Source of the DNA: Humulus lupulus
Taxonomy: Eukaryota > Streptophyta > Magnoliopsida > Rosales > Cannabaceae
Direction: 5' to 3'
DNA length: 64,000 nucleotides
Assembly: GCF_963169125.1 (NCBI RefSeq)
Contig: NC_084797.1
Span: 103,565,868-103,629,867 of the forward strand
The notes below the pieces were generated by a model. The model was not told where the DNA came from, made no database searches, and saw nothing but the letters and a program-made list of their open reading frames with translations. This document shows positions 41,869 through 64,000 of the stretch, one piece after another. The translations under genes were made by a program, and so were the position numbers. The stretch's first letter is position 1, and each line of letters begins with the position of its first letter.

Positions 41869-44800
41869 ATGTCCAGCTCCTCTTCATCAGACAAGTCAGT
41901 AGATGAGCGTAATCCTCAAAAGTTTTTGGAAAGGTTGAAAAGGATTCTTCCTGTTCCGCTTTATACTTATTCAGCGAGGAAGATTTCTTAAAGAGGTATT
42001 GTCCAATGGCGAGAGTGAAACAAACAACCCGAAAACCCTCTAAAGATGATCCTCAGATTTCCAGGCATATCACTCAGGGCTCCTCGCTGGGCTCTTCTTA
42101 GATTACTTCTCAGCATAGTACGCCCCACAGCTCCCAAGGTACCCAATGCACACCTCATCGGAGTCATTCTTCTCAGAGGGAAAGGTCAGGTCAGCAAGAA
42201 CCATTGCAACGCCCTTCGCACAGAGATACTAGTCGGATTCTCCATCGATCTTCTTCTCAGCAAGATTATACAGAGGGCTCACGTTGCTACACTTCTCATC
42301 CCCAGGAGCGTCTCAATAAAAAATTTCCTCCTAAGGTAGTTCGCCCTCCTTCCAAGAGCAAAACAGTCTCGCTAGCTAAACAGTAGAAGAAGAGACAACA
42401 AAAGGAGTTCCATTCATTAGATTCTGGGGACACCTTCGCTAGAGAGATCATATGGAAACTGGTTGAGAAGCCTCGCCCAGCTGATTATGAGGTTGTTTGG
42501 TTCAATAGGGCGGCCTCTAACATGATTGAGGAGAAGGTAAAGAGTTTGTGTAACGCCCTACTACCTTAGAGTCGTTACTAAGTGAGTTTAAAACAGAAAT
42601 TGTGCATTTAATTGACTCAAAGTGGTTTCTAAAACCAAAAGTGTGATTAAACCAGAGTTTAAGGCTGTATTCTTTTAAAATGGTCAACTTCATTGAAAAC
42701 GTTAAATATAAAACATCTGGGATCCCAAAATAAGGTTTACAACTCAAAAATAGATTTACACTTGATCAGCTATCAAAAGAATGGTTAAATACAGCCATAT
42801 ACAAAATGCCCCCAACCAAAGCAGTCGGGCAGGCCGAACATGTACGCGCCGCCCCCACGCTCTCCATACTCATGGCCGATTGACTGACTCCTTGCTTTTA
42901 CCTGCCACAGGAGCACCCGTGAGCCAAAGCCCAGCAAGAAAACCCAAATAGCACATAACATATGCAAATCAAATAGCTGGCATAATTCACTGACACATAG
43001 GAAAAACCATCATAATAAACAAGTACGGCCATGCCGCCCCCAAGGCCTTACCAAAGCCTGGAGTTTCGGTTCTCACCACGAGGATAACTCATGTATCCCT
43101 TGGGTCCCACCCTGAATATAAGCATCCCATGTGCTGTGTGTTACTTTCGGCCCCACGGCCACCCCGGCCTACGCCGCACTCGGCCCTTGCCGTTCATTTC
43201 ATCATAATCACACATATAGTACATTCGAAATAATCATTCACACACATCATGATTCATTTAAGGTTAAACATTTGCACATAGTACAATCTGGGGCCATGCC
43301 CTACAATCACACAGTGGGGCCATGCCCTATTCTCGGGTGTTACGGTTTTCTTACCTGTATCCCGAGCTTTCCAAAGTACCACGGTCACGAGCACGGTCCA
43401 CTAGCACGAGCCTCTCCCAAAATCCTAGTCACAACACACAAAAGACACTTTTAACAACCTTAAATGAGCTTCCAGGCCAAGTTCTAGTACTCGGAACGTT
43501 GAAATTCACCAATCATGGTAAAAGACTCAACCCCGAGCACCCTAGGTTAAATTCCCAAGCCTAAAATCCTAAAATCCCAAAATCCCTTAAGCGCCGCGGC
43601 ATAGGCCACCCATGCCGCGGCATGGCCCCCAAACAGAACCCTCAAAGGCCCAAAAACAGGTAAGGGCCGCGGCATTGCTTGGGCCATGCCGCGGCCCGCC
43701 CTTCTCCATCAGCATACAACTTCTTCGAAGGGCCGCGGCTCACCAAGAACCATGCCGCAGCTCGACCCTTCGAACCCAGAAAAACCCACCATTTTACTCT
43801 CTAATCCTCACCTTAAACCATACCAAACACATATCTCAACCACAAAACTCAATTCCAAACTTTATATGAACAATCTAACAACCTATAGACACTAGAATCA
43901 AGATCAAAACATCAACACACCAAAACATCAAAACATCAAGATCCAAACCTTTGATCTTAAATTTCAGCAACTAACCCAAAACTTAAAAATGCCTAGCTTA
44001 GGCATTAAATTCCTCAAATCAAAACAGAACCCAAACTTAAATGTGTATAAAACCCTTACCTCAAATGGAGAATCCACACAAATCTTCCTTGATCTCCTCC
44101 TAGACTCCCACTTCTCCTTCTCTTCTTCTTCTTGCCCTAACCTTTCTTTCTTCTTCTCTTTCCTTTCTTCTAATTTTATCAAAACACCCAAATGCCCAAT
44201 GCCCCAAACCGTGCCCCCCTATATCCCAGCTGCCTTTTGTCTATTACCCTTGCCAAAAGACCATTTTACCCCTTCTTAATAATCCTTCCTAACTAAACCT
44301 TCAAGGGCACTTAAGTCTTTACACTTCTATTTCAATTCTATCACTTTCTATCTTAAAACTTGTTACCCACCACAGTTACAAATGGTTACCCAAGTTACCC
44401 AATAACTAATCACTCGTTCTCAACTCAACTTATAAGATTCCCGAAGTACCCCTAGGCTCCTCCCGAGCCGGGTACAACATCCCGTTGTGACTTTTAGACT
44501 AACTGGCTCACTAGGACCGTCTCGATGCGAGCATCCTGATAAAACATCACACTCACATGGCACAATTCACATAGTACAATTATCACAGATATGCCCAAAC
44601 ATGGCCAGATTACAATCATGCTCATTCTAAGACAATCAGGTCTACATGCATACTAATTCACATAGTCATGCATCTCAATTAATCAACTAAACACATAGCG
44701 TGCAATAAATCGTAATCATGCATTAAGCTCATTAAAGTCACACACAAAATCCCATTATGCCCTCCAGGCACACTTCCCCAGGCCCTTAAGCCTAAACACT

Positions 44801-46629
44801 GAATTTGGGTCGTTACAGTTTGAGGAAGACCTTTTAACTCTGCAGGGTTTCCATCACTATCCTTGGTCCAGATGACAGAGCTGAGGACCCCCCTCTAGGT
44901 ATGTGCTCTTGGACATGCTCCACCATTAGGTCTGGGGCTCTACTTCTTCTTCATCCGTACTTCTGAAGTGTAGCAGACAATTTTGGTATTAGTCCTTCTC
45001 AACTGGCTCCTAATGCGATCTTGGCCTTATCTGCATTGTACATTATTTATTGCCGCAAAAAATGGGTTGCTCCAGTACCTCACGAGATCCACTATCTATT
45101 TTACCTAAAGACAAACCCTTCTCCGCGTAACTCGGGGTATTTCCATTTCCACCATTATATGAGTGAGGGTACCAACACCTTCTTGGAAGAGATCTCTAGC
45201 AATAGCAAGGAAGTTAGATATGCCGACAACTATTTCTTTTCTAAGGACGCAGAGGCCAATTACTCCAGGTTTAAGCACGTTGGGCCCTTTTATAGACCAC
45301 TCCTGACTCAGGATATGACAGTTAGGGCCAAGGAATTGATTGCCATGACCCCTGAAGAGAAGAATGTCAAGACTCTCGTTATTCCAAAGAACCTTAGGAA
45401 GGTGGGGCTGTTTCCTCCTACCATATCAGATGTTCAGGATGACGATGGTCCCGAGCCCATGATAGGCATAGACTCCCGAGACCTATTCATGTCGAGGATA
45501 TACCCTCTTCGCTGGTGCTAGTCGGGCATGAGGGTGATGAGGTGGGTGCATCTGCTACAAACTCATCGCTTGCTTCGCACGATTTTGATGATGCTACGTT
45601 CGAACTCGAATCACATTCAAAAGGTCCACACTTTATCACCTTTATTTTATGATTCATCTATGTTTAATATCCTTCTAACATTTGATCATCATTTGCAGGC
45701 TTAAACATGTTTGGCTTTGTTTATACCCAGTAAAGGTTGACTCCCACTGAGGCCAGTCCTTTTATTCGAGCGGAAAAAAGGGCCAGGGTTAAGGCTGAGT
45801 CGGTCATGGAGGTTCCTCTTGAGGTGTCTCCTCCGAATCCTTTGGCGTCTAGCCCTGTCACAGAGGTAGAGCTATTTTTTTCTACACCAGTTCCACCCAC
45901 TTTCAATGATGTGGGTGGTTCTTGCTCTGCGCTTGCCCCTTTATCTTAGCCGCATCAGTCTGCTATGCGAAACTAAGCGCCTTCATGGACCGAGCATCGT
46001 ATCTGGAGCAAACAACAAAAAACTTTAATGGGATCAAGAATGAGGACCTGAACACCATTCTCACATAGTCACTCTTAGACATTCAGAGTGTGAGTCATTC
46101 ACAGTTTCCTTCTTGCCTATTTAGCTTGTGTTCTGATGTTTATCTAACACTTGTATGTTTTTTCCATGCATTGATGCTTGTATCTCATGTCCGTGATAGG
46201 TCTGTAGAGTGTACTTCTATGCTCTCCAACCTTCGTTCTGAGCTTGAAGTCGTCCTCTAAGAGGTACTAGACCTTAGGCGCGTTCTTGGCTCTAGGGATG
46301 CAGATATTGCCTTAAAGGATGAAGAAATCAACACCCTTCGCAGTATCGTGGAGCTCAAATAGAAGGAAATGACCGAGTTGACTCTGAGGATAAACCAGAT
46401 GGAGGGGGAACTTGTCGATTAGCTCCAACTGTCTGAAGTGGAGAAAGAGAAGCTAATTGCCGACATGGACCAATTGCGAAAGGATTCTCTTGTCGAGAAG
46501 GAGCAAGAGGTCAAAGTTGCTCGAGACAAGGCTCAACAGGAGTTTTCAAAGACAACTTTCTCTTGCTTCTATTTGATCTGGAAGTCCAATAAATATGTAA
46601 ACTTGGATTTCCTTCCCGAGAAGACGTGA
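41869..46629 (+). pseudogene. Tat-B antisense multi-exon gene (decayed, interrupted)
   Basis: ATG at 41869 right after a TAG acceptor starts a Ser-rich N-terminus that soon meets a stop. A 2.2-kb-family solo LTR (42549-44817) interrupts it. 45021-45521 encodes the PF04195-like domain C-terminal part (ALSALYIIYCRKKWVAPVP, HEIHYLFYLKTNPS). Later exons start at 45699 (CAG acceptor) and 46200 (TAG acceptor), with a donor at 46090 (GAGT|GTGAGTC) at the place corresponding to the Tat-A donor. The end has a coiled coil with FSCFYLIWKSN, matching FLCFYDFWKHN in Tat-A. Many stops: dead. Function unknown. Confidence 0.65.
42549..44817 (+). mobile_element. Solo LTR, 2.2-kb TGTAACGCCC family
   Basis: 2269 bp, TGTAACGCCCTACTACC...GGGTCGTTACA, with the exact duplication GTTTG (42544-42548 and 44818-44822). 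It is very similar to the copy starting at 48835, including the stretch that resumes at 63686. It disrupts the Tat-B antisense gene. GC-rich GCCGCGGC words cluster at about 43590-43760. Confidence 0.9.
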
Positions 46630-47639
46630 GCGAAAGAGCTTAGGTAGTGTCTAGCTCGTGAGGCTGCCGAGGCTCAGGGTAGTCTATCAAACGATACTCC
46701 TCGCCCTAGTTAGTCTTCTTGCTCTTCTATTCTGTTTTTCCTCTCATGCCATTGGTAGGGCACCTTATACTTGACAGTATTTACATATGACATTTTACGC
46801 CTTTATTCCTTTTTGTTACGAGTACTCAGTGTATTGATTGAAATTTTTTATTTCCAATGCTTACTAAGTATATCAACTCACAACCCTTATTGGTTCAGGT
46901 ATTAGTATACTCTGAACACATGTATTTTGCGTGCCATACTAACCTTACTCTTTTACGTTTTTCATGCTAACAACCATGGTAATGTGAGTAGTATAGTACT
47001 TCACAAAGTACCATGAACAAAACGGTATGGTTGACCACCCCATGGGTGATAGGCTGACCACCCTATAGGGTTGATGAACTGGTCAACCACCTTATAAGGG
47101 ACATGGATAGGAGTTCTATACCAATGCCTTTTTTGTTTTTGTTTTTTGCACTTTTGGAACATATGTTGAACAAAAGTCCTAGAAGAACTTGAGCTCGCTT
47201 AGTACTTAAGGTCATGCCCTCATTGCTTGTGTATAACCCGATCAGTATGTACTATATGCCCCCTAAGTGATCATGGGTTTAAAAGCCTTGGTCACTTGCT
47301 ACTTGACTATGCCTTGCTTCGAGCATTTAGACACATAGTACTATCCTTTTCATCCAATGATGCAAGCAGCAAATGCTTGTCCCTCATTGGTAGTCGGGTG
47401 ATGGTTTCATACTCAGTAGTAATGCTACCTATACATAGATGCAGCTTTGTAGCAAGTGTCGATCAGAATCTACCTAATCTCTCATGTACTCGTTATAATG
47501 ATTGTAGACATAAATGTCTAAGTTGGACCAATTAGGTCTAGATGGGCTAATCAAGCCTGTAACAAGTCTTAGATCAAATTATCGATTGGTCCCTCACAAA
47601 ACAGATTCGATGATGATCCAATAATGGCAACTGGTCCTC
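46630..47639. other. Tat-B region downstream of the antisense gene
   Basis: No coding similarity. It contains two or three copies of a TTGACCACC/CTGACCACCC motif (47030-47100) related to the LTR loop. Probably 3' untranslated sequence of the antisense transcript. Confidence 0.4.
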
Positions 47640-48260
47640 CGACCAGTCTCTTTTGTTGATCGTATAGGTCGATTGGTTCCTCAAGAACCAGAATCGTATG
47701 GGTCCTTAGACCAGTCTCTTGTTTGGATCGTATGGGTCGATAGGTCTCTCAAGGACCAAAACCGAACATGATCTAATATTTTGGGCGACAAGGTCCTAGG
47801 ACCCGTCTCTTGTTTGAATCGTATGGGTCGATAGGTCCCTCAAGGACCAGAATCGAACATGATCCTCTATTTGGCGACAAGGTCCACAGACCGTCTCTCA
47901 TTTGGATCGTACGGTTCGATAGGTCCCTCAAGGACCAGAATCAAACATGATCCAATATTTTGGGTGACGAGGTCCTAGGACCTGTCTCTCCTTTGGATCA
48001 TATGGGTCGATAGGTCCCTCAAGGACCAGAATCAAACATGATCCAATATTTTTGGCGACAAGGTCCTAGGACCTGTCTCTCATTTGGATCGTATGGGTTG
48101 ATAGGTCCTTCTTGGACCAGGATCAAACATGATCCATTAATTTGGGCGACAAGGTCCTAGGACCTGTCTCTTATTTGGATCTTATGGGTCGATAGGTCCA
48201 TCAAGGACCATAATCGAACATGATCCGATGGGGTTGATAGGTCCTTAGGACAAGTCCCTT
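47640..48260. repeat. 91-bp tandem repeat between converging genes of Tat-B
   Basis: About seven units with the anchor GTATGGGTCGATAGGTCC at about 47730, 47821, 47909, 48000, 48091 and 48182, spaced 88-92 bp; each also has CTAGGACCTGTCTC and AAGGACCAGAATC. The repeated GGTCC/GGACC words give each unit internal dyad symmetry. It lies between the antisense gene (plus) and pol (minus). Confidence 0.85.
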
Positions 48261-48372
48261 ATTGAAAGAAATTTAAAGAACTATAGAAACTTTAGAAATT
48301 AAATTCATTCATTGAAGTGCAATGGCTGTTATGTAGATAATTCGTAAATACTACATTTGCAAATTAAAACTT

Positions 48373-48834
48373 ATGTTGCTGCTGATTAGTCTTCACTGAT
48401 AGTACCAGCGGAGGTGTTCACCATTCTAGTATTTTTTTTATTAGTTCTCCATTTAGTCGAGCTATCGTGTACGTCCATGGTGGGATCACATCCTCCACAA
48501 GGTATGGCCCTTCCCAGTTAGGTACTAGTACCCCTGCCGTAGTGTCCTTAGTTTTTAGGAACACCCTCCAGAGTACTAAGTCCCCAACTTGAAATTTTTC
48601 ATCTTTCACTCTAGAGTTGATGTATTTGGCCACATTTTGTTGATGTGCTGCTACTCTAAGACTTGCCTTTTCTCATCTCTTTTCGATTAAATCGAGTTAC
48701 ACTTCTATTAGTTGATGGTTCCTCCCTTGATCGTATGTCTCTCGTCTATGAGATGGGGGAGTGATTTCAACTGGCAGCATGGCTTCATGTCCAAATGCCA
48801 AAGAGAATAGCGCATGTCCTGTCGTCGTTCGCGC
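48373..48834 (-). pseudogene. Tat-B integrase C-terminus
   Basis: The minus strand encodes TTTGHALFSLAFGHEAMLPV, then, after stops, VAKYINSRVKDEKFQVGDLV and VPNWEGPYLVEDV, the end of a Tat integrase. It matches the Tat-A C-terminus closely (VARYFNSKVKERKFNVGDLV). Upstream coding sequence is cut at 48835 by an inserted LTR. Confidence 0.8.
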
Positions 48835-49326
48835 TGTAACGCCCTACTACCTTAGAGCCGTTACTTAGTGAGTTTAAATTAGAAATCGTGCTTTTGACTG
48901 ACTCTAAGTGGTTTCTAAAACCAAAAGTGTGGATAAATCAGAATTTAAGGCTGTACTCTTTGAAAATGTTTAACTTCATTAAAACGTTAAATATAAAACA
49001 TCTGGGATCCCAAAAATAAGGTTTACAAAATATTTACAACTCAAAAATAGATTTACACTTGATTAGTTATCAAAAGAATGATTTAATACAGCCATGTACA
49101 AAATGCCCCCAACCAAAGCAGTCGGGCAGGCCGAACATGTACGCGCCGCCCCCACGCTCTCCATACTCAGGGCCGGTTGACTGACTCCTTGCTTTTACCT
49201 GCCACACGGAGCACCCGTGAGCCGAAGCCCAGCAAGAAAACCCAAATAGTACATAACATATGCAAATCAAATAGCTGGCATAATTCACTGATACATAGGA
49301 AAACCATCATAATAAACAAGTACGGC

Positions 49327-50213
49327 TGTTTACCGAGTTTTTCGGAAACGAATAACTAACAGAATAATAAAAAGATAAGAACTGTAGAAATACTGAAATG
49401 TAACTAAACAAACAGTGTTTTTACGTGGTTCAGGCGTTAACAAGCCCTAGTCCACGAGTCGATGTTATTATACTTGGAAAAGATTACAGTAAGATGGCTG
49501 GTGCATAAGAACTTCACACGCTCACAATGTTTCTCTCGGGTTCTCTTGAGGAAGATGAAGCTAGAGAGATTTTAGTAGAGTTTTTGCTATATGATTTGTT
49601 CGTCTCCCCTCTTGTAAAATGAAGGGGTCTTTATAGCTAGGGTTTTGGATTAGGGTTTTTCTCTACGTACATGAGTTTTAATTACACCAGCCATAAATAG
49701 GGATACAATTACTGTAGTAGCATGGCTACAAGACTCTATGTGGGTATATTTACGTGAAAGTATGGGGAACACACAAAGTCAGCCGTCTTTTCCAAGTTGT
49801 CAGCGGAACAGTAGGCGAAAAGGTACCCTTAGGCGTGCTGGGATGTGTGCGGCTTTGACCTGACGGGCGTGTCAGGCGGGATCCTGTGTCAGGCGGATAT
49901 CATTCCAAATATGCCTCCTCCAGGACTCGACCGTTTGGCTTTGTTCCGTGCGAGGCACGGAACTGCTTCCGCGGAGACCACTCGAAGAGCTTCTCCTGGA
50001 AGGAGCTTCCCCGATGGATACTCCTTCGGGAGCTCCGGGAGAGTTGACGAGTTTCCGTATGGTGTTTGCTTGGAAGAGTAATCCGGACACCAAGCGGGAG
50101 AGGTGAAGACTTTCTGTATATCCGCGAACTCTGGTCACCTATCGTGAAAGACATCGATAATTCTGTTTCCCCGAGGCCATCAATCTAAACGCTATCCGGA
50201 AATCTGGATAACA
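49327..50213 (-). repeat. Tat-C 3' LTR
   Basis: 887 bp. On the minus strand it starts TGTTATCCAGATTTCC and ends GAAAAACTCGGTAAACA. Compared with 62799-63685 it differs at two sites (A/G in CGCGAACTCTGG and G/T in CTATCCGGAAATC). Confidence 0.95.
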
Positions 50214-50225
50214 TTTACCCCCCAA
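50214..50225 (-). other. Tat-C polypurine tract
   Basis: On the minus strand TTGGGGGGTAAA directly precedes the TGTTATCC start of the 3' LTR. Confidence 0.8.
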
Positions 50226-50668
50226 GGTCACGGAGCTTTGAGGGATCCGGGAGCTTGTACAATCGGTTTCTTAGATTAGGCGAGGGGGCACCTTCTGTGT
50301 TCCCGGAAGGGTTCCTTTTTCCCGCCTGAGTGTTAGTATGGAAAAGAAAGAGAATTTCTTCTGTTTGAGGTCAAGTACTCAAGTGCGGCAAGGACCACGT
50401 GTCATTCTGGGAATGGTTCTGCGACCAAGACGTGTGCGTGAGGCGACTGGTTGAGTATGCGTGCGTCAGTCATCTAACTAATGATTTGACGGTTTTTAAT
50501 GGTACTCCGGGCCCGAGGTGGTGTAATGATGGGAAATAAATACTTTATTCCCATCCGAGGAGTCATAAATAGGATCGTCGCTTCCTCTCCAGCCGTTGGA
50601 TCTGATGCACACGGAATGGGAAGATCGGGACCGTCCACTTGAGGAATTCGAAACGGCCTCTTCCCTGC

Positions 50669-50676
50669 TATAAAAA
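50669..50676 (+). promoter_or_regulatory. TATA box of the Tat-C antisense gene
   Basis: TATAAAAA preceded by TTCCCTGC and followed about 30 bp later by a pyrimidine-rich start region (CTTTCTTCCTCTTTACGC). The leader has donors at 50803 (TTTTG|GTAAGTAT) and 50958 (CATCA|GTAAGTAT) and acceptors at 50887 and 51410. Distance to the coding start (about 740 nt unspliced) equals that in Tat-A. Confidence 0.6.
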
Positions 50677-50956
50677 CGAGGGAAAGGACCTTTCTTCCTC
50701 TTTACGCTTTTAGATTCTCCATCTTTAGGATTTTCAGATTTCCAAACCTTCGAACTCTCAGGCTTCCCAGCTTACGTTCCCCCGAACTTGCCATTTCTTT
50801 TGGTAAGTATCTGGAAACTTTTCTTTTTGATTTGGCAGTGGGTTTATTCCCGAAGTTCCTGGTTTGAATCGCCGTTCGTCTTTGCAGCTTTTACTTCTCG
50901 CGATCGTGCTGTGCAGTGATCCAGTTACTCCCTCAACCTCCAACTACCCGAACATC

Positions 50957-53900
50957 AGTAAGTATTTCTACTTTGCTCTTTCCTCCCAAACCTTAGGTTG
51001 TTGGTAGTTGTTAGAGTAGAGGTTTCTGCCATTATTGCTTATGTGCATTTGTGAATAGGGCTTTGGTAGGCATGTGATTGATTGTGAGTCGATAAGTAGC
51101 CTTTTCTGCATGTTTTGGCGATTTGCGTTTGGAAAGTCGTCCCGTGTTTTGCTGTTTTAGGGCATAAGCATGAACGCCTTTAGGGTGTCTTTCTCTGGAA
51201 AAACACTTCTTTTGGTGGGCTTAGGCTCGGGGTCTGAGTCTGGTTCCTTGCTGTCCTTCGGGTGGCATGGTGCCAATCCCTCGGTAAGCTCGGTGGGAGC
51301 CTCTCCAAGCAGTTTTCGAGGAGGGTCTCCCCGACGCCTTTGATACCACTAGGGTATGACAAGGGTGCTGACTGCTTAGAGTGTTTTCTTCTTTCTTTTC
51401 TTTTATCCAGTGACGAACATCTCGAAGGAACAACTCCTTGCTGCGGGGGAGGCTGATTCTGCCCAAGAGAAGGGCTCTCCTGTCGCTGGTGGAAAGGGGA
51501 AAGGAAAAGCGAAAGCGGTCGCGGCTAGCCCACCAACCTCCAATAGTTCCATCTGGGAGATGGACCAAAAACCGAACCTTTTCAGGAATTATGGCATGCT
51601 AGAGCTGTATTCCTCCGAGGCAGGCCTGAAGAACATCCCAGGTCTGATGTGGCACCGTCTGTCGGTGCTGGGCGAGTCAGCTAGCCAGAGCCACGAGGGC
51701 TTTGGTGCCTGGAGTTGGGCACACATAGTGTGCGGAGCGCACTTGCCCCTAAGGAGTTACTTCGCCAATTTCTGTGTGAAGGCGGGGATTGCCCCCTTCC
51801 AGTTAATTCCTCCCAGTTACAAGCTCTTAGCGGGGTGGTTCATCTTTTGCAAGTCCCAGAGACTGGAAGCTCCTACCCCGGAGGAGGTGCTGTACTTTTA
51901 TGGGTTGAAGTCTCAGCCTATGAGGGGTCACTCAGACAAGGTGGGGTTTTACAGGCTAGAAAGGCACCCGGATGTGATGTGCCCCACTTGTCATACCGCG
52001 AGGGTTCCAGACCTCCGGGAATACTGGTTCCTGACGACTGGCTTCCCGCTGAAGAGGGTGCCAGCTCTATCTTTGGATTTCAAAATCCCTGGTAAGTGTT
52101 TCCTCTTTTCCTTTTCAACTTTGTTTCTTTGTGTTTGATTTGCCTTTTGGGAGGATCTCTAACGCTTGTATTTGATTTTTGCAGAAGTCGTTCCGCGGAC
52201 ACCTCGCTGCGCGGAGATGATAAGGAGGTCCAAATTCTACGAAGGGCTTTCCGAGGAAGAGTTGAGAGTGGAGGGACTTGTGACCTCCGAATCGTTGAGG
52301 GAGTATGGGTTACTCGCCTCCTTCCAAAATATCGAGCCAGTAAGTGGTAGGGGGCAGACTCAGGTGTCGGCTGACATCCGGGAGCAGATTGCCCTGGAGC
52401 TGTCTAAGGTGATCACCCAAGCCGCTCGGGACGAAAATACTCTATCTCCTAGTTGGGCGGAGAGGTTCCCCGACCCCCAGCCGGAGGGAGAGGAGATCGA
52501 GGCTCGCCACGCCGCGGCTTACCCTAACGAAGGGGCTCCGGGGGCTAGTTCCTCCGGGAGAGGTAAGACTAGTTTTCGATTGATCCACACCCCCAGCCTG
52601 TCTGAAGTTTCCCAAACCTCTCAGATGGGGTTTGATCCTCGTTTCCTTAGGCTAGATCCGCGTAGGATACCTTTCGACAGGTACTGTGATAGGGTAGATG
52701 AGCTCCTCTGGTGTCTGAGTGATGGTAGTCTGCCAGAAGGTGTCATCATGGTTGACCCTTCTTCTCTCAGCATGTTCTTCCCGGACTTCAAGGAGTACGG
52801 GAGCTTCCTGGAGCAGGAAGCGATGTTTTGTTTTGCTCGGGGAAGGCCATCCACGTTTCTCGTGCATGGTCGTCCCTTTCAAACTTTTCTTTTTCTTGTT
52901 TCTTGTTCCCTGCTGGCGGGCTTGCTTGTACTTTTATGTTGCTGATTGTCTTGTCTTCCGCTTATCTTCTTTCTCATTTCTTGTTGGTTCGTTAACCTTG
53001 CTTTGTACGTTTCTTGCAGAGTATCCCGAAGCCAAGATGTTGGGGAGGGTTACTTTGCTTATTAAGAAGGCTGCCACCAGCCAGGACCCGCCCACGGGGA
53101 AAGGACGGAAGCCCAAGGCTGGTAGGGGAGGTAAGGCTGCCTCCCCCAAGAAGACAAGTGGCGAGGCGCAAGCGTCTCCGAGGGTAGAGAAGTCCCCTGC
53201 TGAAGGGCCTTCCGAGACTATGATGGTCTCGAGTAGCAGTAGCGACGGGGAAGGGCTTGTGTTCCCCGTGAGGACAACTGGGGTGAGCAAGCGTCCCGGA
53301 GGAGATGCTGAGGGTGCTAAGAACAAACGCCTTAGACACTCTTCTCCCGGTCGAAGGCAACAACAACAGCAACGACAGCAATCACAACTACAACAACAGC
53401 AGCAACAGGAACAAGAGAGACAATCACCAACGCCGCAGCAGCAGCAACAGCAACATCCAAACCAGCAGCAGCAACAAGGGCAATTACTTCTGCTACCGCA
53501 GCAGCAAAAGCAACAGACCGGGGCCTTAATACCCCGGCTGCCTCCTCCTCCAGTCCAAAGGGGGTCCACCCTTCCGGGGTCTCCGTCTTCTCAGACAACC
53601 AATCTTCCCCTGCCTGGCCTGAAGTTCCACTTTCCGCGGAAGCCGACCAGTTTTCCCGCTGCCCTCCTGGAGGGTGTAAGACGGGCCGATAGTTTTTTGA
53701 AGAGGCGGCTAGAGGCGGAGAAGGCCGTTACTCAGGGAAGGGCAGATAACTTGTCTGCCGTGAAGAGGGCTGAGCTGGCCGAGGGGGTGAGATCTCCTCA
53801 CCCGGCCGGAGCGGTTCTGGATGGTCCAGCCTTGGAGAAGAGGCTGGTGCCTAGGCTTGGACGTGCATTGGCGCCGTTCGGAGCTGAGATGATGGAGGAC

Positions 53901-55104
53901 ATGGCCCTGAGCTTATGCGAGCTCAATTCTGAGAAATGGGCCATCAGTAGCAGCAAGGATCCGCTGTTGCTGACACACGCTGTGAAGCAGCAACTGTCCG
54001 GGGTAAGCCGTCAGTTGTTATTTTTTGGGATCACCTCTCTTTTGGTCCGGCTTTAGCTCATCCGGTTGTCTTTCCTTGCAGGCCTCTATGATCGCGGAAC
54101 GCTCGTTCCGGGAGGTTGGTGCGGCTCTGGTTCAGCTGGAGGAGAGCCAGCTGGCTCGCCAGGCCCTGGAGGCGGAGAAACAGAAGCTGACCCAACAGGC
54201 CTTGGGGGCTTCGGAGAAGATTGATCAGGCCCGGCGCACGGCTGAAGAAGAGGCGGAGAAGAAATATCTTGCCAAATATCAAGAGTACCGGGCCAAGGCA
54301 GAGAATGAGTTTAGACAGCGGTCGGATGGGATTAAGACCGAAAACTCCAAGCTCCGGGAAGAGCTGTCCCAAGCCAAGGTGGAGAAAGATACCCTGGAAG
54401 CCCGCTTGCAATCAAAGAACGATCTCCTCCTTAAGCGGCAAGAGGAATATTCCACTCTTCAGAGTAAGCTGCACGACGAGGAGCAACTCCATAAGAGGAG
54501 CAGGGATCTCGTGTCTATGCTTCAGTTGGGGCTCGCCGAGAAGGATAAAGAGATCGGGGCTTTGCAATTCACTGCCAGGGGGCATGTGACCGAGAAGCAA
54601 TCCGTGCTGAACCAAAATAGGGAGCAGCGCAAGGCGATTGATTCTCTTAAGGGGGAGCGGGATGCCTCCAAGGCCGAAATGGAAAAATTGAGGGCCCAAC
54701 TAACTGCCGCGGAAGCACAGCTGGCAACCTCCGAGGCGGAGCGGTTGAAGGAGAAGGAGGATGCTGAGGTGATACTGAACAGGACTATTAATATATCGCA
54801 TGTGGTCCTCATGCATCAACTCTGGAAAGTGAACCCGGAGGTGTTAGGCTATCTGGGAGATGATGCCGAAGCCATGAGGGAGAAGCTACTCGTGTGGGAT
54901 CAGGGCCCAGAGGCGTATGTCCAAACTTATAACATTGACGATCGTGCTGAAGCTCCTGAGGCGGGAGATCCCGGAGAGGCGGGGACTTCTGAACCTTCTC
55001 ATGACCAAATTCCTCCTTCCAATGAGCCGACTCCGCCAGCCTCAGCTGAAACAGATGCCCCCGAAGCTGCGGTCGTGGACGCTGTAGTTACCCCCAATGC
55101 TTGA
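50957..55104 (+). CDS. Tat-C antisense gene, intact, multi-exon (PF04195-like domain plus coiled coil)
   Basis: Coding pieces: A of the start codon at 50957, then 51411-52091, 52185-52868, 53020-54002 and 54082-55104 (stop TGA). All introns are GT-AG; phases after the split ATG are 1, 1 and 0. Total 3372 nt = 1123 residues plus stop. The first intron splits the ATG (A|TG). Residues about 100-220 resemble Pfam PF04195, 'putative gypsy type transposon' (LPLRSYFANFCVKAGIAPFQ; RLEAPTPEEVLYFYGLKSQ). Residues about 568-622 are Gln-rich. Residues about 790-1015 form a long coiled coil (LEAEKQKLTQQALGASEKID), and the tail is acidic and Pro-rich. Intron phases and domain order match the Tat-A gene. 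Function unknown; a nuclear or particle-associated accessory role is inference. An optional 63-nt intron (52562-52624) would keep the frame. Confidence 0.8.
53357..53519 (+). repeat. CAA/CAG-rich tract encoding polyglutamine
   Basis: Interrupted runs of CAA and CAG codons inside the fourth coding piece of the antisense gene give a Gln-rich segment with scattered Arg, His, Pro and Leu. Likely length-variable between copies. Confidence 0.85.
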
Positions 55105-56495
55105 AGGGGTTTTATCTTTAATTATTTTTCATTTTGAGTTTTTCATTGCGGACATTTTTACCATAATCATAGCATTCTCCTTTCTTTTCTGCCGAGTTCT
55201 TTATTTATCCTTGCGCTTAGGGTAGACATTTATACGGTAGAAACTGTTGTAGGGGCGTATGGGGTTTTGGTTCCAACGGCCAAAACCTATGCACTTCCCA
55301 CTTGAAGCTTTAACGGATGATGTCTTTTTCCCATGTAGTTTCTAGGTTACGAAGGTTTCCTGGTTCCAACGGTCAGGCTCCTTTCACCGTACTTTATCTT
55401 TCCTGAGGCAAATAGCCAATCCAGGGACTTGTAGTTATACTGTTCGCTGGGATTGCTAAGGTGAGTCGTTCCATTGTTTGGAACGGGAGTTCTTTTGGTG
55501 AGCGTCGCTAGACTTAAGGTTAGATCTTTGCGAAGCAAAACTAACTGTTGTTGCGAACCTCATTGTGGCTGACTTCAGGGACCTGGCATGGAGCCCTGCG
55601 AGGCAAGGCTTATTGCTGTTGGGGAAATCGCCACGCCCACCAGGTGTGATCCTGGAGCAGGGGCTTTGCGAAGCAAAGCCGGCTGTGAGTGGGGGGATCA
55701 AGTATGTCTGCTTCTGGAGCTGAAACTTGCAATGGCCATGGAGCTTGCCATGCATTATTTTGTGAGATCCGGAGTTGGAGCCTGCGAAGCAAGGCTTACA
55801 ACCGTCGCGGATCTTGCCATCTTTCGCCTCGCTGGACCCGGAGCTGGAGCTTGCGAAGCAACGCTCTACAGCGCTCGCGGATCTTGCCATCTTTCGCCTT
55901 GCGGGATCCGGAGCTGGAGCTTGCGAAGCAAAGCTCTACAGCGATCGCGGAGAATTCTGCAAAGGACTTGTCAGGGAGTTGGGGGTGTTTTGGCGTAGCT
56001 CTATGAGCGTGCCTCGACCCCCAGTCCCGTCCATCGCTGGGCTACACAGGAGATAATACTTATGATACATAATGGCAGGCATTTCCATGGCAATTTTCAC
56101 ATAAGCACATATGACACGTAATGCAAGCATGTTCATGGCAACAAATAAACCTAAGCTCAACAATTTAAACATTTCAAACAATTTAAAAATTTCAAACACA
56201 ATGCTAGCACATAAGTGGTGTTCTGTGTACGTTTTGTTCAAGGGGCGTATGGTTATGCCTTAGCCATGTATACCCCCCAAGTGAGCGTGGGGTCCGGACG
56301 TCTCCGGACCGCGTGGTCACTTGTTAAAACGCAGCTTTGAACACAGGGATAAAAAGTGCAGTAAAAGCGGAGTGAATCTCTCCGTGTTTCATTGAATTAG
56401 CCTGCTAGGCGTGAGTTTTACAACAGGGAGGATTATTTCCACATTTTTCACTTTTGTTATTTTCACCAAGGACTTCCGACTGGATGGTCCGGGGC
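55105..56495. other. Region between the converging antisense gene and pol of Tat-C
   Basis: No protein similarity. It holds the 3' ends of both transcripts and, at 55531-55960, a set of hairpin-containing repeats described separately. Confidence 0.5.
55531..55960. repeat. Repeated hairpin units between converging genes of Tat-C
   Basis: At least six copies of a core like TTGCGAAGCAA. One is the perfect hairpin GCTTTGCGAAGCAAAGC (about 55667-55683). The last three are in a 69-70 bp tandem unit (anchors at 55781, 55850 and 55920) containing GCGGATCTTGCCATCTTTCG. The 20-mer GAGCTTGCGAAGCAAAGCTC at 55917-55936 recurs exactly at 61187-61206 inside gag of the same element. Confidence 0.8.
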
Positions 56496-59400
56496 CTACT
56501 GGTAGTAACGGCGGAGGTGCTCCGCGTTCCAGGCGCGCGGGACTTTAGATCCGTCGAGTCTCTTTAAGTGATACGTCCCATGGCCCACTTTTTGCTGGAC
56601 TTCGTAGGGGCCTTCCCAGTTGGGTCCGAGGACTCCTACTCCCGGGTCCTGCGTAGCAGGAAATACTCTCCGTAGGACAAGATCTCCAACTTCGAATGTA
56701 CGGCTCTGGACTCTCATGTTAAAGTGTCGGGCTATCTTGCCTTGGTACATTTTTAGTTGGACCTGCGACTGCTCCCGGAGCTCCTCGATCATGTCCAAGG
56801 ACTCCTGGAGGAGGGCATGGTTCCGGGTAGGATCGTAGGTGTCTTGCCTGTGAGAGGGGATCATAGCTTCTACTGGGATGACGGCCTCGCAACCGAAGGT
56901 CATGGAATAAGGCGTGTGCCCCGTCGAAGTTCTCTCTGTTGTGCGATAAGCCCAAAGTACTCGCGGAAGTTCTTCCGGCCAGTGAGCCTTGCAGGCTTGG
57001 AGTTTTTTCTTCAACGTGGTCTTTAATATTTTGTTTACAGCTTCCACTTGTCCATTAGCCTGTGGTCTGGCGACCGCGGAAAAGCTTTTGATAATTCCAT
57101 GCGAAGCACAGAAGTTCGTGAAGTGTTCACTGTCAAACTGCTTTCCGTTGTCGGACACAATTTTCCGTGGAAGCCCAAAACGACACACTATATTCCTGAT
57201 GACAAAATCCAGTGCTTTTTTAGATGTGACCGTGTTCATAGGTTCAGCTTCAGCCCATTTGGTGAAGTAGTCTACCGCGACTATGGCGTACTTCACTCCA
57301 CCCTTTCCAGTGGGGAGGGAACCTACTAGGTCAATGCCCCAAACGGCGAACGGCCAGGGGCTGGTCATTAGGGTAATTTCCGTAGGCGGCGCTCGCGGAA
57401 CCTTGGCGTACCTCTGGCACTGCTCACACTTCCTAACATAATCCACACAATCCTTCTTCATGGTGGGCCAGAAGTATCCTTGTCGAAGGATTTTTTTGGA
57501 GAGGCTCAGCCCGGAGGTATGATCGCCACAGAAGCCTCCGTGAATCTCATGGATGATGGTGCTGACTTCGGTTCCGGCAACACACCTAAGGAAGGGTATG
57601 GACAACCCCCTGCGGTAAAGCTTTCCATCCATAACCACGTATCGGGGAGCTTGATACTGGAGCTTCCTTGCGTCCGCTTTATCGGTGGGGAGTTCTCCGG
57701 TGGTGAGAAATCTGAGGATGGGTCCTATCCAGGAGTGGGAATGGTCGATGATGGCGTTTATCCTTCGCGTCTCAGTACTGGGGGCTTCTAAGTGCCCGAT
57801 GGGGACTAAGCCATACTGTTCAATCTCCGGGTCCGTTGCAAGCTTGGCCAGCGTGTCCGCAAGTGAGTTCTGGTCCCGGGGGACCTGGCGGATTTTGTAG
57901 CCTTTGAAATGCTGCAGTAGGCCGCGGGAGAGAGACACGTAGGCAGCCATCCTTTCGCCTTTCGTCTGGTATTCCCCGGATATTTGGTTTACCACAAGCA
58001 GGGAGTCGCTGTACACTTCGATTTTTTGGGCTCCGACTTCTCTGGCCAGTCGTAACCCAGCTAACATGGCTTCGTGTTCTGCCTCGTTGTTGGATGCTGG
58101 GAATGCGAAACGGAGGGCGCTCTGGAGCTGATGCCCTTGGGGAGATATTAGGATAACCCCCGCTCCAGCTCCTTTTTCATTTGAGGCTCCGTCTACGTAG
58201 ACCTTCCAGGTGGGAAGTTCCGGGACAGGATCTTCTGGGAGGTCATTCATTCCCGAGCACTCCACAATAAAGTCCGCGAGAGCTTGACCTTTTATGGAAA
58301 CACGCGGTTGGTAGTGGACGTCGAACTGGCTTAGTTCCATGGCCCACTTAAGCAATCTGCCAGAAGACTCGGGCTTCTGTAGGACTTGTCGGAGAGGGTG
58401 GTTGGTGAGTACTTTGATGGTGTGCGCCTGGAAATATGGCCTCAGCTTCCGTGAAGCGATCAGCAAGCAGGGGGAGAGTTTCTCGATCATCGAATATCTG
58501 GACTCAGCGTCCAATAACCTCTTGCTTACGTAATACACAGGGAGCTGGATACGGCCATCTTCCCGGACGAGAGCGGCACTTACTGCGTGCTCAGTCACAG
58601 CTAGGTACAAGAACAACGCCTCTCCTTCGACCGGTTTGGACAAAATGGGGGCTCGGGTTAAATGTTCTTTGAGGTGTTGGAAGGCCGCTTCGCATTCGGG
58701 GGTCCACTCGAACTTCTTGTTCCCTCGCAGAACATTGAAGAAGGGGATACACTTGTCGGTGGCCTTGGATACGAAGCGACTGAGAGCAGCTATCCTTCCG
58801 GTAACGCTCTGGACATCCTTATGCTTCCGGGGGGAAGGCATATCTATGAACGCCTTTATTTTTTCAGGGTTGGCTTCCACGCCGCGGGAGCTGACAATAA
58901 AACCGAGGAACTTTCCAGACGAGACCCCGAAAGTACATTTCTTTGGATTTAGCTTCATCCCGTACTTTCGGATCACGGCGAAAGCTTCCTCAAGGTCGTT
59001 ACTGTGGTCCCCGGAGGTCTTGGACTTTACCAACATGTCGTCCACGTACACCTCCATGTTCCTCCCCAGTTGGTCCTTGAACATTCTGTTTACCAGACGC
59101 TGGTAAGTCGCCCCAGCATTCTTCAAACCGAAAGGCATGACCACGTAACAGTAGACACCCTTATCCGTGAGGAAGCTGGTGTGTTCCTGGTCCGCGACAT
59201 GCATCTTGATCTGGTTGTATCCGGAGTACGCATCCATGAAGGATAAGAGTTCGTACCCGGAAGTAGCGTCCACCATCTGATCGATTCGCGGGAGAGGGAA
59301 ACAATCTTTCGGGCAGGCCCTGTTTAGGTCCGTGAAGTCAATGCACATTCTCCAGGACCCATCGGGTTTCGGGACCAGAACTGGGTTGGCCAACCACACG

Positions 59401-62012
59401 GGATAGTGCGACTCCTGGAGAAAGCCTATGGACATCAATTTGTCCACTTCAGCTTTGACGGCTTCGGCTCTCACTGGGTCCAGCGGCCTCCTCTTTTGGC
59501 GAATTGGAGTTGCAGCTGGGTCTATGTTGAGTGCGTGGCACGCAACATTGGGATTAATCCCTGTCATATCAGCGTGGCACCATGCCAGGATATCCTGATT
59601 ATCCTTCACAGTGGCCACGATCTTATCTCGAACGGCCGACGGCAGGTTTTTCCCCACCTGAATGACCTTGGTGGGTTCTCCCGGATTGAGGATCACCTCT
59701 TCGACTTCCTCCATCGGCTCTATTGCTTTCTCGATTCCCACTCTTGGGTCGAGTTCGTCAAAGTATGCCTCCTGAGCATCCCTAGTTTCTGGAAATACTT
59801 CCGCCAAAGGAATGGCAGCAAACGTCTCTCGGACCGTGTAGACGGCTCGGACGGAGACGTTATAACAGCTCCGTGCACTTCTCTGGTCTCCTCGGAGGGT
59901 GCCAATACGCCCATCGTCGCAGGGAAACTTCAAGCATAAGTGACGTATCGAGGTTATGGCCCCACAATCGATCAGGACCGGTCGGCCTAAGATGGCATTA
60001 TACGCCGTGGGGCAGTCGACCACCACGAATGTGCTATGCTTGAAGGCACAAGCGTCGCTTTCTCCTCTGAGGGTGACCGGAAGTTGAATTTTGCCTAATG
60101 GCATGAGTGCGTCCCCATTGAAACCTTGAAGCTGGATGGGGCATGGGGCCAGGTCCGTCTCGGTCAATCCGATCGCGTGGAAGGCCGCTTTGAAGAGGAT
60201 GTTCACGGAGCTTCCGTTATCGATCAAGATCCGTGAGACCTTCTTATTGGCAATCTGGGCTTCCACTACGAGGGGATCGTTGTGGGGGAAGTGCACATGT
60301 CGAGCATCGTCCTCCGTGAAGGTGATGGGAAGATCCATCATTCGGGGACGTTGAGCAGGTGATTGGACCAAAGCGCACATCTCCTCGGCGTGCTCTAACT
60401 CCTTCAAGTACCTCTTCTGGGAGTTGCGGGTACTTCCGGCAAGGTGTGGTCCTCCGGAAATGGTGGCGACGTGTCCGTCAACGGGTGGCGGAGCAAGGCT
60501 GGGTGGATATGGGTTGCCTGGTCCTGGAGCCAACAAGGCAATGGGCGCCGGAGCGGGTGGAGCAGGAAGTGCTGGGAACTGAGACCCGGGAGCTTGGGGG
60601 TGACCGGCTCCAGGTGCACTAGCGGCTCCCCTCTGTCCCGGGGAATATGCAGCTCCGTGAACCACCCCCTGTCCGGGATAGATTATGGGTATTCTCACCC
60701 ACTGACCGAGGTGTCCCGCTCTTGCCAGGGACTCGATTTCATCCTTCAGCTGAAGGCACTCATTCGTGGTGTGCCCCACGTCTCCGTGGAACTCACACCT
60801 CTTATTGGAGTCTCGCGGACGCCTTCCTCCGTGAGACACTTTCGGGGGCTTCCTGTAGTTGACCATATTACAGGTCGCCCGATAGACATTCTCTCGCGAG
60901 TCTATTAAACTGGTATATTCCGTGAACTTGGGCTCATAATCCTTTCGGGGTTTCTTTGAATGGTCTCCCCGGTTGGAGTTTTTTCCGCTTCGTTTGCTCC
61001 GCGATTGGCTCAAACTTCGTTCCGGGGCTTCCGCTTGCGGCTGCGGCATGCTAGGAGCGATACTACATCCGGTTTGTACCGCTCCATACCCAGAGAAATG
61101 TGTTTGACCCGGCGTCTGAACAGACGCGGAAGGCCCATACACACTCGGAGTGAATCGGGCTCCTGGAAGCGTGAGGACTGGTGCGGGAGCTTGCGAAGCA
61201 AAGCTCGGCGCAGTCACGGAAGGGGTTGGAGCCGGGGGAACTCCAAAGGCTTGCTGGTAGGCATCCTCAAGGTTGATGATTCCCTGAGCTTTTGACATGA
61301 ATTCGGACAGGGTTTCTGCCCGTCTCCTTTGCATTTCCCCCCATAGCAGGGAGCCGACAGTAAGGCCCGATTGAAGGGCGATCAGCTTCATGTCATCGCT
61401 GACCTTGGTTTTTGCAGCAGCTTCCATCATTCTCTGAATGAAAGCTTTGAGGTTCTCAGTGGGTTGCTGTTTGATGTTGGTTAAGGAACCAACCTCCATG
61501 TCGTGGTCGCGGGCAGCAATAAACTGCCTCCTAAACGCGGACTGTAGCTCCTTCCAACTGTGGATTGATCCGGGAGCTAATCTTTTCCACCAGTCCTCCG
61601 CAGACTTGGTAAGGGTGAGTGAGAAGCACATGCATTTGGCGTCCTCACTGACGCGCGCCACTTGCATCATTTTATTGTATTTAGCTAGGTGGGTACGCGG
61701 GTCTGTCCTCCCATCATATAATTCTATGTGAGGCATTTTGAAGTTATCCGGGAGGGACGTTTCCGCGATCCTCCTAATACATGGTTCCGGGTCTTCCTCC
61801 TCAGAATCTGACAGGGCCCCACTTTGCTTCCGGACCAGCTTGGTCAAGGCAGCAATCTGTTCCTCGAGCCTCTTCGTATCACTTTCCGGGAGGTCACGTC
61901 CCCGGAGCTTGTCATTAATATGATTTCGGAGGTCATCTCCGCGAGGCCGGGCTTTTTCCCCTTTGGCCTTCTCATACTTGGCCTCCAACCTTCTTCTTAG
62001 GTCCACCGTGGA
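56496..62012 (-). CDS. Tat-C gag(capsid)-protease-polymerase-integrase polyprotein
   Basis: One uninterrupted minus-strand frame of about 1838 codons up to the stop at 56496. Numbering from 62006: capsid Retrotrans_gag about 95-210; zinc knuckle [14 protein letters not shown] at 404-417 (C-X2-H-X4-H-X4-C); protease active site IDNGSS near 595; reverse transcriptase about 840-1030 with YVDD at 986; linked RNase H about 1090-1210; second RNase H about 1268-1395 ([20 protein letters not shown]); integrase zinc finger ([11 protein letters not shown]...CEQCQRY) and core with Asp 1559, Asp 1619 and Glu 1655 (D,D35E); C-terminal GPNWEGPYE, ending EHLRRYYQ. All catalytic residues are present. It has no ATG until about residue 90, so it probably depends on reading through the TAG at 62015-62013. 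Confidence 0.93.
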
Positions 62013-62711
62013 CTAGCTATCTTCGGAGTGCGAGTTCGCAGCCCGACCGTCCTGATTGACGGAATCACTGGGGCGGTTGTTCCTTCCCCTAGGCCTGGGT
62101 GCCTTAGCACCGGGCCCTTTAGGCACAGAGTGCCCCCTTGGGGCTGAAGGGCGTCTGGGCTTAGGAGCGCCAGAGACCTTCTGCGCGCGGGGGGGGCAGT
62201 CGGCCTGGTGATTCACGCCTTTAGGAGGTGCGGGGGCGTCAGCGCGCACAGGCTCTCCCACTTTTTCTTTGCCCTTGTTAGGGGCGGCTTTGGATGGTCC
62301 AGCAGCGGCTGGATCCGGCATGGGGGCATCAGCACCACCTCGAACAGAGGTATCCTCGTCCGAGTCGCCTAGATCTCCGAACCTACTTTGGAGGCGTTCC
62401 ATCATGCGTTGCATTCTTTCGGAGACGCGCTCCTGCTCAGCAAGCTTGGCCTTAGTGGCCACCAGTTCTTCGGCTACTTGGACCAGTTCTGGGTCCTTCT
62501 CATAGTAGCAGCCGTCCCTGTAATAACCGTCTTGGACATACTCTTCTTCGTCTTCTAAGTATGTTGTATCTTCGGTACTGACCTGATCCTGGCGGGATGT
62601 CGGGTCTTCACCTTGGTAGTCTAAGGGATCGCTTTGCACCACATCTTCCATCACGGTATCGGGGTTGACCGTAGCATTTTTGTCAACAGCGGATTTTCTC
62701 GTAGTCACCAT
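62013..62711 (-). CDS. Tat-C gag N-terminal frame
   Basis: ATG at 62711 (MVTTRKSAVDK), 232 residues, ending in TAG at 62015-62013. It is acidic and Tyr-rich early (EEEYVQDGYYRDGCYY), then a helix LVATKAKLAEQERVSERMQR, then a basic Pro/Arg-rich end. It is in the same frame as the following gag-pol frame with only that TAG between. In Tat-A the equivalent N-terminal part is continuous with capsid apart from stops, so this looks like one gag gene divided by a stop codon, either leaky or a recent nonsense change. The product would be the N-terminal part of the particle protein. Confidence 0.8.
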   Translation of the reverse strand: MVTTRKSAVDKNATVNPDTVMEDVVQSDPLDYQGEDPTSRQDQVSTEDTTYLEDEEEYVQDGYYRDGCYYEKDPELVQVAEELVATKAKLAEQERVSERMQRMMERLQSRFGDLGDSDEDTSVRGGADAPMPDPAAAGPSKAAPNKGKEKVGEPVRADAPAPPKGVNHQADCPPRAQKVSGAPKPRRPSAPRGHSVPKGPGAKAPRPRGRNNRPSDSVNQDGRAANSHSEDS

Positions 62712-62776
62712 CTCTTTAGCACGAAGTGAATACAAAAAACGTACACAGAAAAAGAGCTGACTAACAACTTCCTACC

Positions 62777-62795
62777 GCTCTCAATGAAAGCACCA
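62777..62795 (-). other. Tat-C primer-binding site
   Basis: On the minus strand TGGTGCTTTCATTGAGAGC, three bases after the 5' LTR end. Identical to the Tat-A site at 12212-12230. Confidence 0.85.
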
Positions 62796-62798
62796 AAA

Positions 62799-63685
62799 TG
62801 TTTACCGAGTTTTTCGGAAACGAATAACTAACAGAATAATAAAAAGATAAGAACTGTAGAAATACTGAAATGTAACTAAACAAACAGTGTTTTTACGTGG
62901 TTCAGGCGTTAACAAGCCCTAGTCCACGAGTCGATGTTATTATACTTGGAAAAGATTACAGTAAGATGGCTGGTGCATAAGAACTTCACACGCTCACAAT
63001 GTTTCTCTCGGGTTCTCTTGAGGAAGATGAAGCTAGAGAGATTTTAGTAGAGTTTTTGCTATATGATTTGTTCGTCTCCCCTCTTGTAAAATGAAGGGGT
63101 CTTTATAGCTAGGGTTTTGGATTAGGGTTTTTCTCTACGTACATGAGTTTTAATTACACCAGCCATAAATAGGGATACAATTACTGTAGTAGCATGGCTA
63201 CAAGACTCTATGTGGGTATATTTACGTGAAAGTATGGGGAACACACAAAGTCAGCCGTCTTTTCCAAGTTGTCAGCGGAACAGTAGGCGAAAAGGTACCC
63301 TTAGGCGTGCTGGGATGTGTGCGGCTTTGACCTGACGGGCGTGTCAGGCGGGATCCTGTGTCAGGCGGATATCATTCCAAATATGCCTCCTCCAGGACTC
63401 GACCGTTTGGCTTTGTTCCGTGCGAGGCACGGAACTGCTTCCGCGGAGACCACTCGAAGAGCTTCTCCTGGAAGGAGCTTCCCCGATGGATACTCCTTCG
63501 GGAGCTCCGGGAGAGTTGACGAGTTTCCGTATGGTGTTTGCTTGGAAGAGTAATCCGGACACCAAGCGGGAGAGGTGAAGACTTTCTGTATATCCGCGAG
63601 CTCTGGTCACCTATCGTGAAAGACATCGATAATTCTGTTTCCCCGAGGCCATCAATCTAAACGCTATCCTGAAATCTGGATAACA
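62799..63685 (-). repeat. Tat-C 5' LTR
   Basis: 887 bp, next to the primer site. Contains a minus-strand TATA box (CTATAAAG, 63109-63102) that would drive the gag-pol transcript. Two differences from the 3' LTR. Confidence 0.95.
63102..63109 (-). promoter_or_regulatory. Tat-C LTR TATA box
   Basis: CTATAAAG on the minus strand, followed by ACCCCTTCATTTTAC. Preserved in the 3' LTR at about 49630-49637 and in the solo LTR near 34216-34223. Confidence 0.6.
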
Positions 63686-64000
63686 ACGGCCAAGCCGCCC
63701 CCGAGGCCTTACCAAAGCCTGGGGTTTCGGTTTTCACCGCGAGGATAATTCATGTATCCCTTGGGTCCCACCCTGAATATAAGCATCCCATGTGCTGTGT
63801 GCTACTTTCGGCCCCACGGCCGCCCCGGCCTACGCCGTACTCGGCCCTTGCCGTTCATTTCATCATAATCACACATATAGTACATTCAAAATAAACATTC
63901 ACACACATCACGGTTCATTTAAGGTTAAGCATTTGCACGTAATACAATCCGGGGCCATGCCCTACAATCACACAGTGGGGCCATGCCCTAATCTCGGGTG

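Follow-up and report, generated by a model that had tools for sequence, protein, structure and literature searches.

A probable spliced antisense gene with an intron-split start codon in a Retand-type LTR retrotransposon of Humulus lupulus

We analyzed a 64,000-nucleotide stretch of the Humulus lupulus genome (contig NC_084797.1, forward strand, positions 103,565,868 to 103,629,867; hereafter the window), in which a long terminal repeat (LTR) retrotransposon, element A, carries an open, intron-containing frame on the strand opposite to gag-pol. We consider this frame to be, with fair probability, a spliced accessory gene, antisense to gag-pol in a Ty3/gypsy element of the Retand type, with a split start codon and a nuclear protein as its product. 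A real spliced protein gene is highly likely, the split ATG is likely to be its main start, and for a nuclear factor acting on the element the chances are about even. A preliminary description of the locus had proposed an antisense gene with several exons and a start codon formed by splicing. Selection at the protein level supports this proposal, as does the fact that other copies keep the split ATG and the splice sites. The anatomy it gave stood in the main, but its intron 3 donor is doubtful, its PF04195 label is less well supported, and the element itself is not intact.

The gene model (50957-55104, plus strand) gives a spliced frame of 3372 nt, a multiple of three, with 1123 codons, no internal stops, and a terminal TGA at 55102-55104; the exons, joins, and frame length first reported were exact to the base on re-reading. 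The start codon is divided between A at 50957, the final base of the leader exon, and TG at 51411-51412, in the arrangement A | GTAAGTAT ... TTATCCAG | TG, by intron 1 (50958-51410, GTAAGTAT...CCAG). Coding exon 1 (51411-52091) encodes a TRP28-like domain, coding exon 2 is well supported from 52185 to 52723, coding exon 3 (53020-54002) is basic and glutamine-rich, and coding exon 4 (54082-55104), which contains the TGA, appears coiled-coil-like by inspection. The end of exon 2 as first drawn (52724-52868), bounded by candidate donors at 52724 and 52868, is conserved at the nucleotide level and doubtful as coding sequence. Upstream are a TATA-box-like TATAAAAA (50669-50676), identical in three of three copies from a sister subfamily, and a probable leader intron (50803-50887, GTAAGT...TTTGCAG), whose GT and AG are present in the same three copies and whose donor is GC in 3 of 38 close copies of the window element. 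The four longest plus-strand open stretches in 51380-55104 (445, 365, 260, and 252 codons) sum to 1322 codons, compared with a maximum of 758 and a mean of 453 for the top four in 500 dinucleotide shuffles. When splice sites were scored with an approximate matrix, the acceptors of all four introns fell within the top 1% of AGs in the window and the donors of introns 2 and 4 within the top 2.5% of GTs; the intron 1 donor, a perfect GTAAGT preceded by a poor A, ranked at 16%. Two homologous Cannabis proteins, P0008 and P0010, align over the exon 1-2 and exon 3-4 junctions, the latter of which is spanned by P0010.

Variation among close copies of the element shows selection at the protein level. 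A search of the host assembly (2.48 Gb in 121 contigs) with exon 2 gave 1639 first-look candidates, of which 40 were scored, including the window copy; the other 39 were fetched, and 38 close copies remained after the divergent L032 was dropped. Choosing copies by likeness in exon 2 biases the intact share upwards, and exon 2 was excluded from counts of single nucleotide polymorphisms (SNPs). The model frame was unbroken by stops or frameshifts in 28 of the 38 copies, including L009 and L016 with in-frame indels, and neither the split ATG nor any GT/AG pair of introns 1-4 carried a substitution among the 38. Across exons 1, 3, and 4, SNPs common to at least two copies were synonymous in 26 cases and not in 14 (pN/pS 0.23, p = 3.7e-6), where the expected synonymous share was 29.5%, and singletons were synonymous in 49 cases and not in 67 (pN/pS 0.57, p = 0.002). 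When six frames were compared, a synonymous excess appeared only in the predicted frame and its mirror on the opposite strand. Shared SNPs numbered 1.49 per 100 bp in coding sequence, 2.84 in introns, and 4.54 in flanks. Copies within one genome supply evidence of protein-level selection across the exons. The indel pattern was dropped as a sign of selection, as its contrast lay at only one site, near 54020 in intron 4 (54003-54081); this site varies in length, and insertions of 1-35 bases take 17 distinct forms there across the 38 copies.

The gene was also compared with the sister subfamily, found in the host genome with the homologue P0003 (124 scored matches of 53,983 first-look candidates). 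Three sister genes, L048-L050, were fetched; L049 is interrupted from intron 3 onward and was excluded from dN/dS, which skipped gapped codons, mostly in exon 3 repeats. Relative to L048 and L050, respectively, dN/dS was 0.06 and 0.07 in exon 1, 0.09 and 0.13 in exon 2 up to 52723, 0.17 and 0.25 in exon 3, and 0.32 and 0.33 in exon 4. All GT/AG pairs are present in L048, and the intron 4 AG is lost in L050. Within intron 1, a block at 51260-51379 showed 0.92-0.95 identity between the subfamilies, above its neighbors; its fold was no better than that of shuffles (z -0.78), and the z of an intron 1 control piece was 0.17.

The split start codon is conserved well beyond the window. The A|GT...AG|TG arrangement is present in L048, L049, L050, and 19 of 20 further sister copies (22 of 23); the exception, L055, has lost the GT and retained the A, and A at 50957 is found in all 23. 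As first claimed, the ATG exists in this frame only through splicing, in that the unspliced frame upstream of AG|TG stops after 10 codons and has no ATG. In 22 sequences (the window, L048, and L051-L070), an in-frame upstream ATG before a stop or fragment end occurred twice (L053 and L067). On the assumption that transcription starts near 50695, the leader is 178 nt long after splicing. It is free of ATG in the window copy and in three of three sister copies; among the 38 close copies, judged by SNPs only, 37 lack an ATG and L021 has one. The probability that a leader is ATG-free by chance is about 0.46; intron 1 contains 6-8 ATGs. In 20 of 21 sister sequences (L048 and L051-L070), intron 1 ends with at least 45 codons that are open in the exon 1 frame, mostly without ATG, and a one-base difference alters this in the window subfamily. 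Such an open intron end would lead simple gene finders to lengthen the protein, as in P0003 and P0006, which, like P0007 less surely, show in the protein alignment the valine that unspliced AG|TG would give. An N-terminal extension of the P0003 type was rejected as a general start: although 20 of 21 sister sequences are open there, an ATG occurs in just 2 of the 22 sequences examined. The split start appears to be a feature of the clade of element A, as the related gene of a second retrotransposon in the window, element B, starts inside an exon.

The predicted protein of element A, with 1123 residues if intron 3 begins after 52868 and 1075 if it begins after 52724, is a divergent TRP28 relative that the Pfam model misses. 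The PF04195 label given to it at first is supported only through homology to element B, which itself matches PF04195; the protein had no direct match for exon 1 at E up to 10 or for its whole length at E up to 1. Element B (LTRs 11603-12208 and 22641-23246) has pol identity of 58% and 68% in two matches and lower identity in gag, and its antisense gene (21672 to about 19360, minus strand) matches PF04195 at 28.1 bits against a cut-off of 26.2. The element A protein aligns with it at 31.5% (tblastn E 1.8e-15; hhalign 98%). Read by eye, the element B gene resembles that of element A in having introns of phase 1 where introns 2 and 3 lie and in ending with a coiled-coil-like part; unlike element A, its ATG lies within an exon. 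A third retrotransposon, element C, carries a relative (44967-45518, plus strand) with a PF04195 score of 15.7 bits, below the cut-off (hhalign 39%), which differs from the element A gene in being open, without an intron, through the intron 2 place. Overall, PF04195 matched two of 12 aligned proteins scanned. With the full 1123-residue protein as query, none of the 7987 scored candidates (those sharing most words) proved to be a homologue, and nine homologues were recovered, eight with an exon 1 piece and one by a region search; searches of viral contigs and genome contigs found no exon 1 relatives. Residues 456-783 contain 40 glutamines and have a net charge of +20. A TFIIA match at 18.2 bits (cut-off 36.2) was weak and was taken as low complexity.

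Genes of this class are known. Recent Retand clusters all have antisense frames, with TRP28 in 97% (Vicient 2025, PMC11963269), and Transposase_28 was reported in 23% of Retand elements (PMC6317226). The TRP28 domain is predicted to bind DNA (PMC11963269, PMC7264820), and the region between pol and the 3' LTR spans 2,933-6,566 bp in Retand (PMC11963269). As in element A, the antisense TRP28 genes of Retand have a tandem repeat nearby and a TRP28-related domain (PMC11963269). They carry PF04195, however, whereas the element A clade is unrecognized by the Pfam model, and the survey counts single open frames, whereas the element A gene is a multi-exon model. Surveys based on single frames or on PF04195 would overlook the element A clade. 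Gene23 of the maize element Grande, like the element A gene an antisense accessory gene, is described as transcribed from its own upstream promoter and nuclear (Gomez-Orte 2013, as told in PMC7264820 and PMC11963269); for the element A gene, a promoter is predicted from the TATA-like box. HBZ of human T-cell leukemia virus (HTLV) type 1 is also an antisense-encoded, nuclear retroelement protein (PMC11963269), a functional analogy for which we claim no sequence relation, and the HTLV antisense promoter lies within the 3' LTR (PMC7264820), whereas that of element A is seemingly internal. The role of Retand antisense genes is a question raised in reviews: their function is stated to be unknown and a search for antisense and spliced transcripts is urged (PMC7264820), and the effects of antisense RNA are treated in PMC12786077. 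The novelty first suggested for the locus was thus reduced with respect to the class, to which TRP28 antisense genes and gene23 belong. The exon structure, split start, and selection result are apparently undescribed: we found no description of them in the literature examined, which did not include the original gene23 paper, and nothing on introns in antisense Retand genes, the word "intron" being absent from the passages of PMC11963269.

Some alternatives concern the details of the gene model. A real gene with a different main start is unlikely, though it deserves some weight; translation would begin at the in-frame ATG at 51560 (M50, in the motif WEMDQ) or in another leader exon. The M of WEMDQ lies in invariant columns of seven aligned homologues, and the open end of intron 1 in sister sequences, with its read-through in P0003 and P0006, would also suit this alternative. 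It is opposed by the near-constant A|GT...AG|TG arrangement, the scarcity of in-frame upstream ATGs, and the ATG-free leader, the last being of the limited weight that its chance probability implies. Retention of the ATG at 51560 makes a shorter protein possible, so the dependence on splicing that had been claimed applies to the split codon and not to the protein overall. With somewhat better than even probability, the gene model errs at intron 3 and nowhere else; the donor there would be 52724 (or 52739), and 52725-52868 would be intron or a separate cis element. Both of these donors have the same phase as 52868 and score higher. Relative to L048 and L050, dN/dS within 52724-52867 was 0.73 and 1.42, with dS of just 0.06 and 0.05, and the synonymous share differed from that of exons 1-2 (p = 0.019 and p = 0.005 in Fisher tests on rounded counts). 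Among nine sequences, 17 of 32 variable sites just before 52724 were at third positions, compared with three of 16 within 52724-52867, and exon 2 of element B seems by eye to end shortly past the matching motif. On the other hand, the GT at 52725 is missing in L085 while that at 52869 is present in nine of nine sequences, identity in 52724-52867 (0.92-0.97) is above that of neighboring introns, and the variable sites in the stretch number only 16. We lean toward 52724, and the exon 2/3 junction first placed at 52868, with its weak donor and no coding pattern of substitution in the stretch before it, is less well supported. The nucleotide-level block conserved between the subfamilies, at 0.92-0.97 and above its neighbors, extends over 52724-52880, and 52724-52868 folds better than shuffles (z -2.46).

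Other alternatives concern what kind of gene this is. The product could be an antisense RNA rather than a protein, pairing with genomic RNA to tune or silence the element; roles of this kind for antisense transcripts are considered in the literature (PMC7264820, PMC12786077), and the conserved, folding block at the end of exon 2 would agree with it. We regard this as quite improbable, as change in the predicted frame is strongly synonymous. Still less probable, to the point of being very hard to sustain, is capture of a host gene by element A. The presence of several exons and of a leader resembling a promoter would fit a host origin, but elements B and C have relatives at the equivalent antisense position, the Cannabis homologue P0010 continues into sequence antisense to pol, and no identified host gene was among the nine homologues of a limited search.

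Several observations weigh against a spliced antisense gene for a nuclear protein as we have modeled it. Ten of the 38 close copies are broken, by frameshifts in L010, L013, and L022 and by stops in L012, L017, L020, L024, L031, L035, and L045; eight are broken by a private change, and L020 and L045 by a shared stop. Frame breaks at neutral frequency had been named beforehand as evidence that would count against the gene; in the 38 copies on which this was examined, shared variation is strongly synonymous and singleton variation less so. Total SNPs per 100 bp in exons 1, 3, and 4 (4.7-6.7) are near those in introns 1-3 (6.5-6.8), distinct indels, which apart from the length-variable site of intron 4 are no rarer in exons, number five in 3371 bp of exons and one in 697 bp of introns 1-3, and identity of intron 1 between the subfamilies (0.85-0.89) is level with that of the exons. 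The intron 3 donor at 52868 is weak, with 46% of plus-strand GTs in the window scoring at least as high; the phase fit at intron 3 is therefore no independent evidence, and the claim that all phases fit, which holds for the coordinates given, partly reflects the choice of sites. The structure model was poor (mean predicted local distance difference test score 48.9), and a structure search gave 16 matches at E up to 10, none of them at 0.001. No run of at least five lysines or arginines within eight residues was found in the protein, so its nuclear location is argued from analogy.

We propose that a promoter lying past the 3' LTR and ahead of the gene, with its TATA-like box at 50669, would give plus-strand RNA, from which splicing would remove the four coding-region introns and probably one leader intron, fusing A with TG into the start codon. 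The resulting protein would begin with a TRP28-like domain, continue through a middle region that is basic and rich in glutamine, and finish in a coiled-coil-like part. Most likely, it would be a nuclear, oligomeric factor associated with nucleic acid or chromatin that serves the element, for example by regulating expression; the nuclear role is borrowed from Grande gene23 and from the predicted DNA binding of the TRP28 domain. The introns would survive retrotransposition because reverse transcription copies RNA of the opposite strand, which lacks these splice sites, and the intron places common to elements A and B suggest that introns have passed through many such cycles. This offers a rationale for the antisense orientation, in which an intron-bearing gene would persist through reverse transcription of the genomic RNA. 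Speculatively, the gene may be splice-gated, such that full protein comes only from a dedicated transcript processed in the nucleus, whereas antisense RNA made by read-through could not yield it. In this view, the antisense orientation would keep the multi-exon gene through repeated reverse transcription, and 52724-52880 would be an additional element working at the nucleotide level, either in the control of splicing or as a genomic-RNA signal on the other strand.

Element A (49327-63685, minus strand) is delimited by an LTR pair (49327-50213 and 62799-63685; 99.8% identity across 887 bp) and by the target duplication ACGGC (49322-49326 and 63686-63690). The element is young, as first described, but it is not intact. 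Its gag-pol open frame (56496-62012, minus strand) has Pfam matches to gag (130-218), reverse transcriptase (880-1040), RNase H (about 1103-1392), and integrase (1482-1650), and a protease match slightly under the Pfam cut-off. An in-frame stop in gag at 62013-62015 separates it from an upstream open stretch in the same frame (62013-62771, minus strand). Ten copies were fetched for this site, of which L075 and L076 end before it, and the other eight all have a sense codon there, indicating that intact copies of the element exist. The domain order is that of gypsy elements (reverse transcriptase, RNase H, integrase), and the region of about 6.3 kb from the end of pol (56496) to the 3' LTR (50213), with four antisense open stretches of at least 252 codons, resembles the long region with antisense frames of Retand. 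From this order and the antisense gene, we infer that element A is a Retand-type Ty3/gypsy element (Tat). A tandem repeat (55769-55951; 70-bp unit, 2.6 copies) lies between the antisense gene and pol.

The insertion site of element A is an LTR of the older element C (42549-49326 and 63686-64000), in which integrase-end sequence adjoins one LTR and little other pol is present. Element C is an internally deleted or non-autonomous relative in which the antisense gene is still present. A further segment (33913-34802) is 97.3% identical to the element A LTR, has no adjoining internal region, and lies inside the LTR of another element; it is a solo LTR of the element A family.

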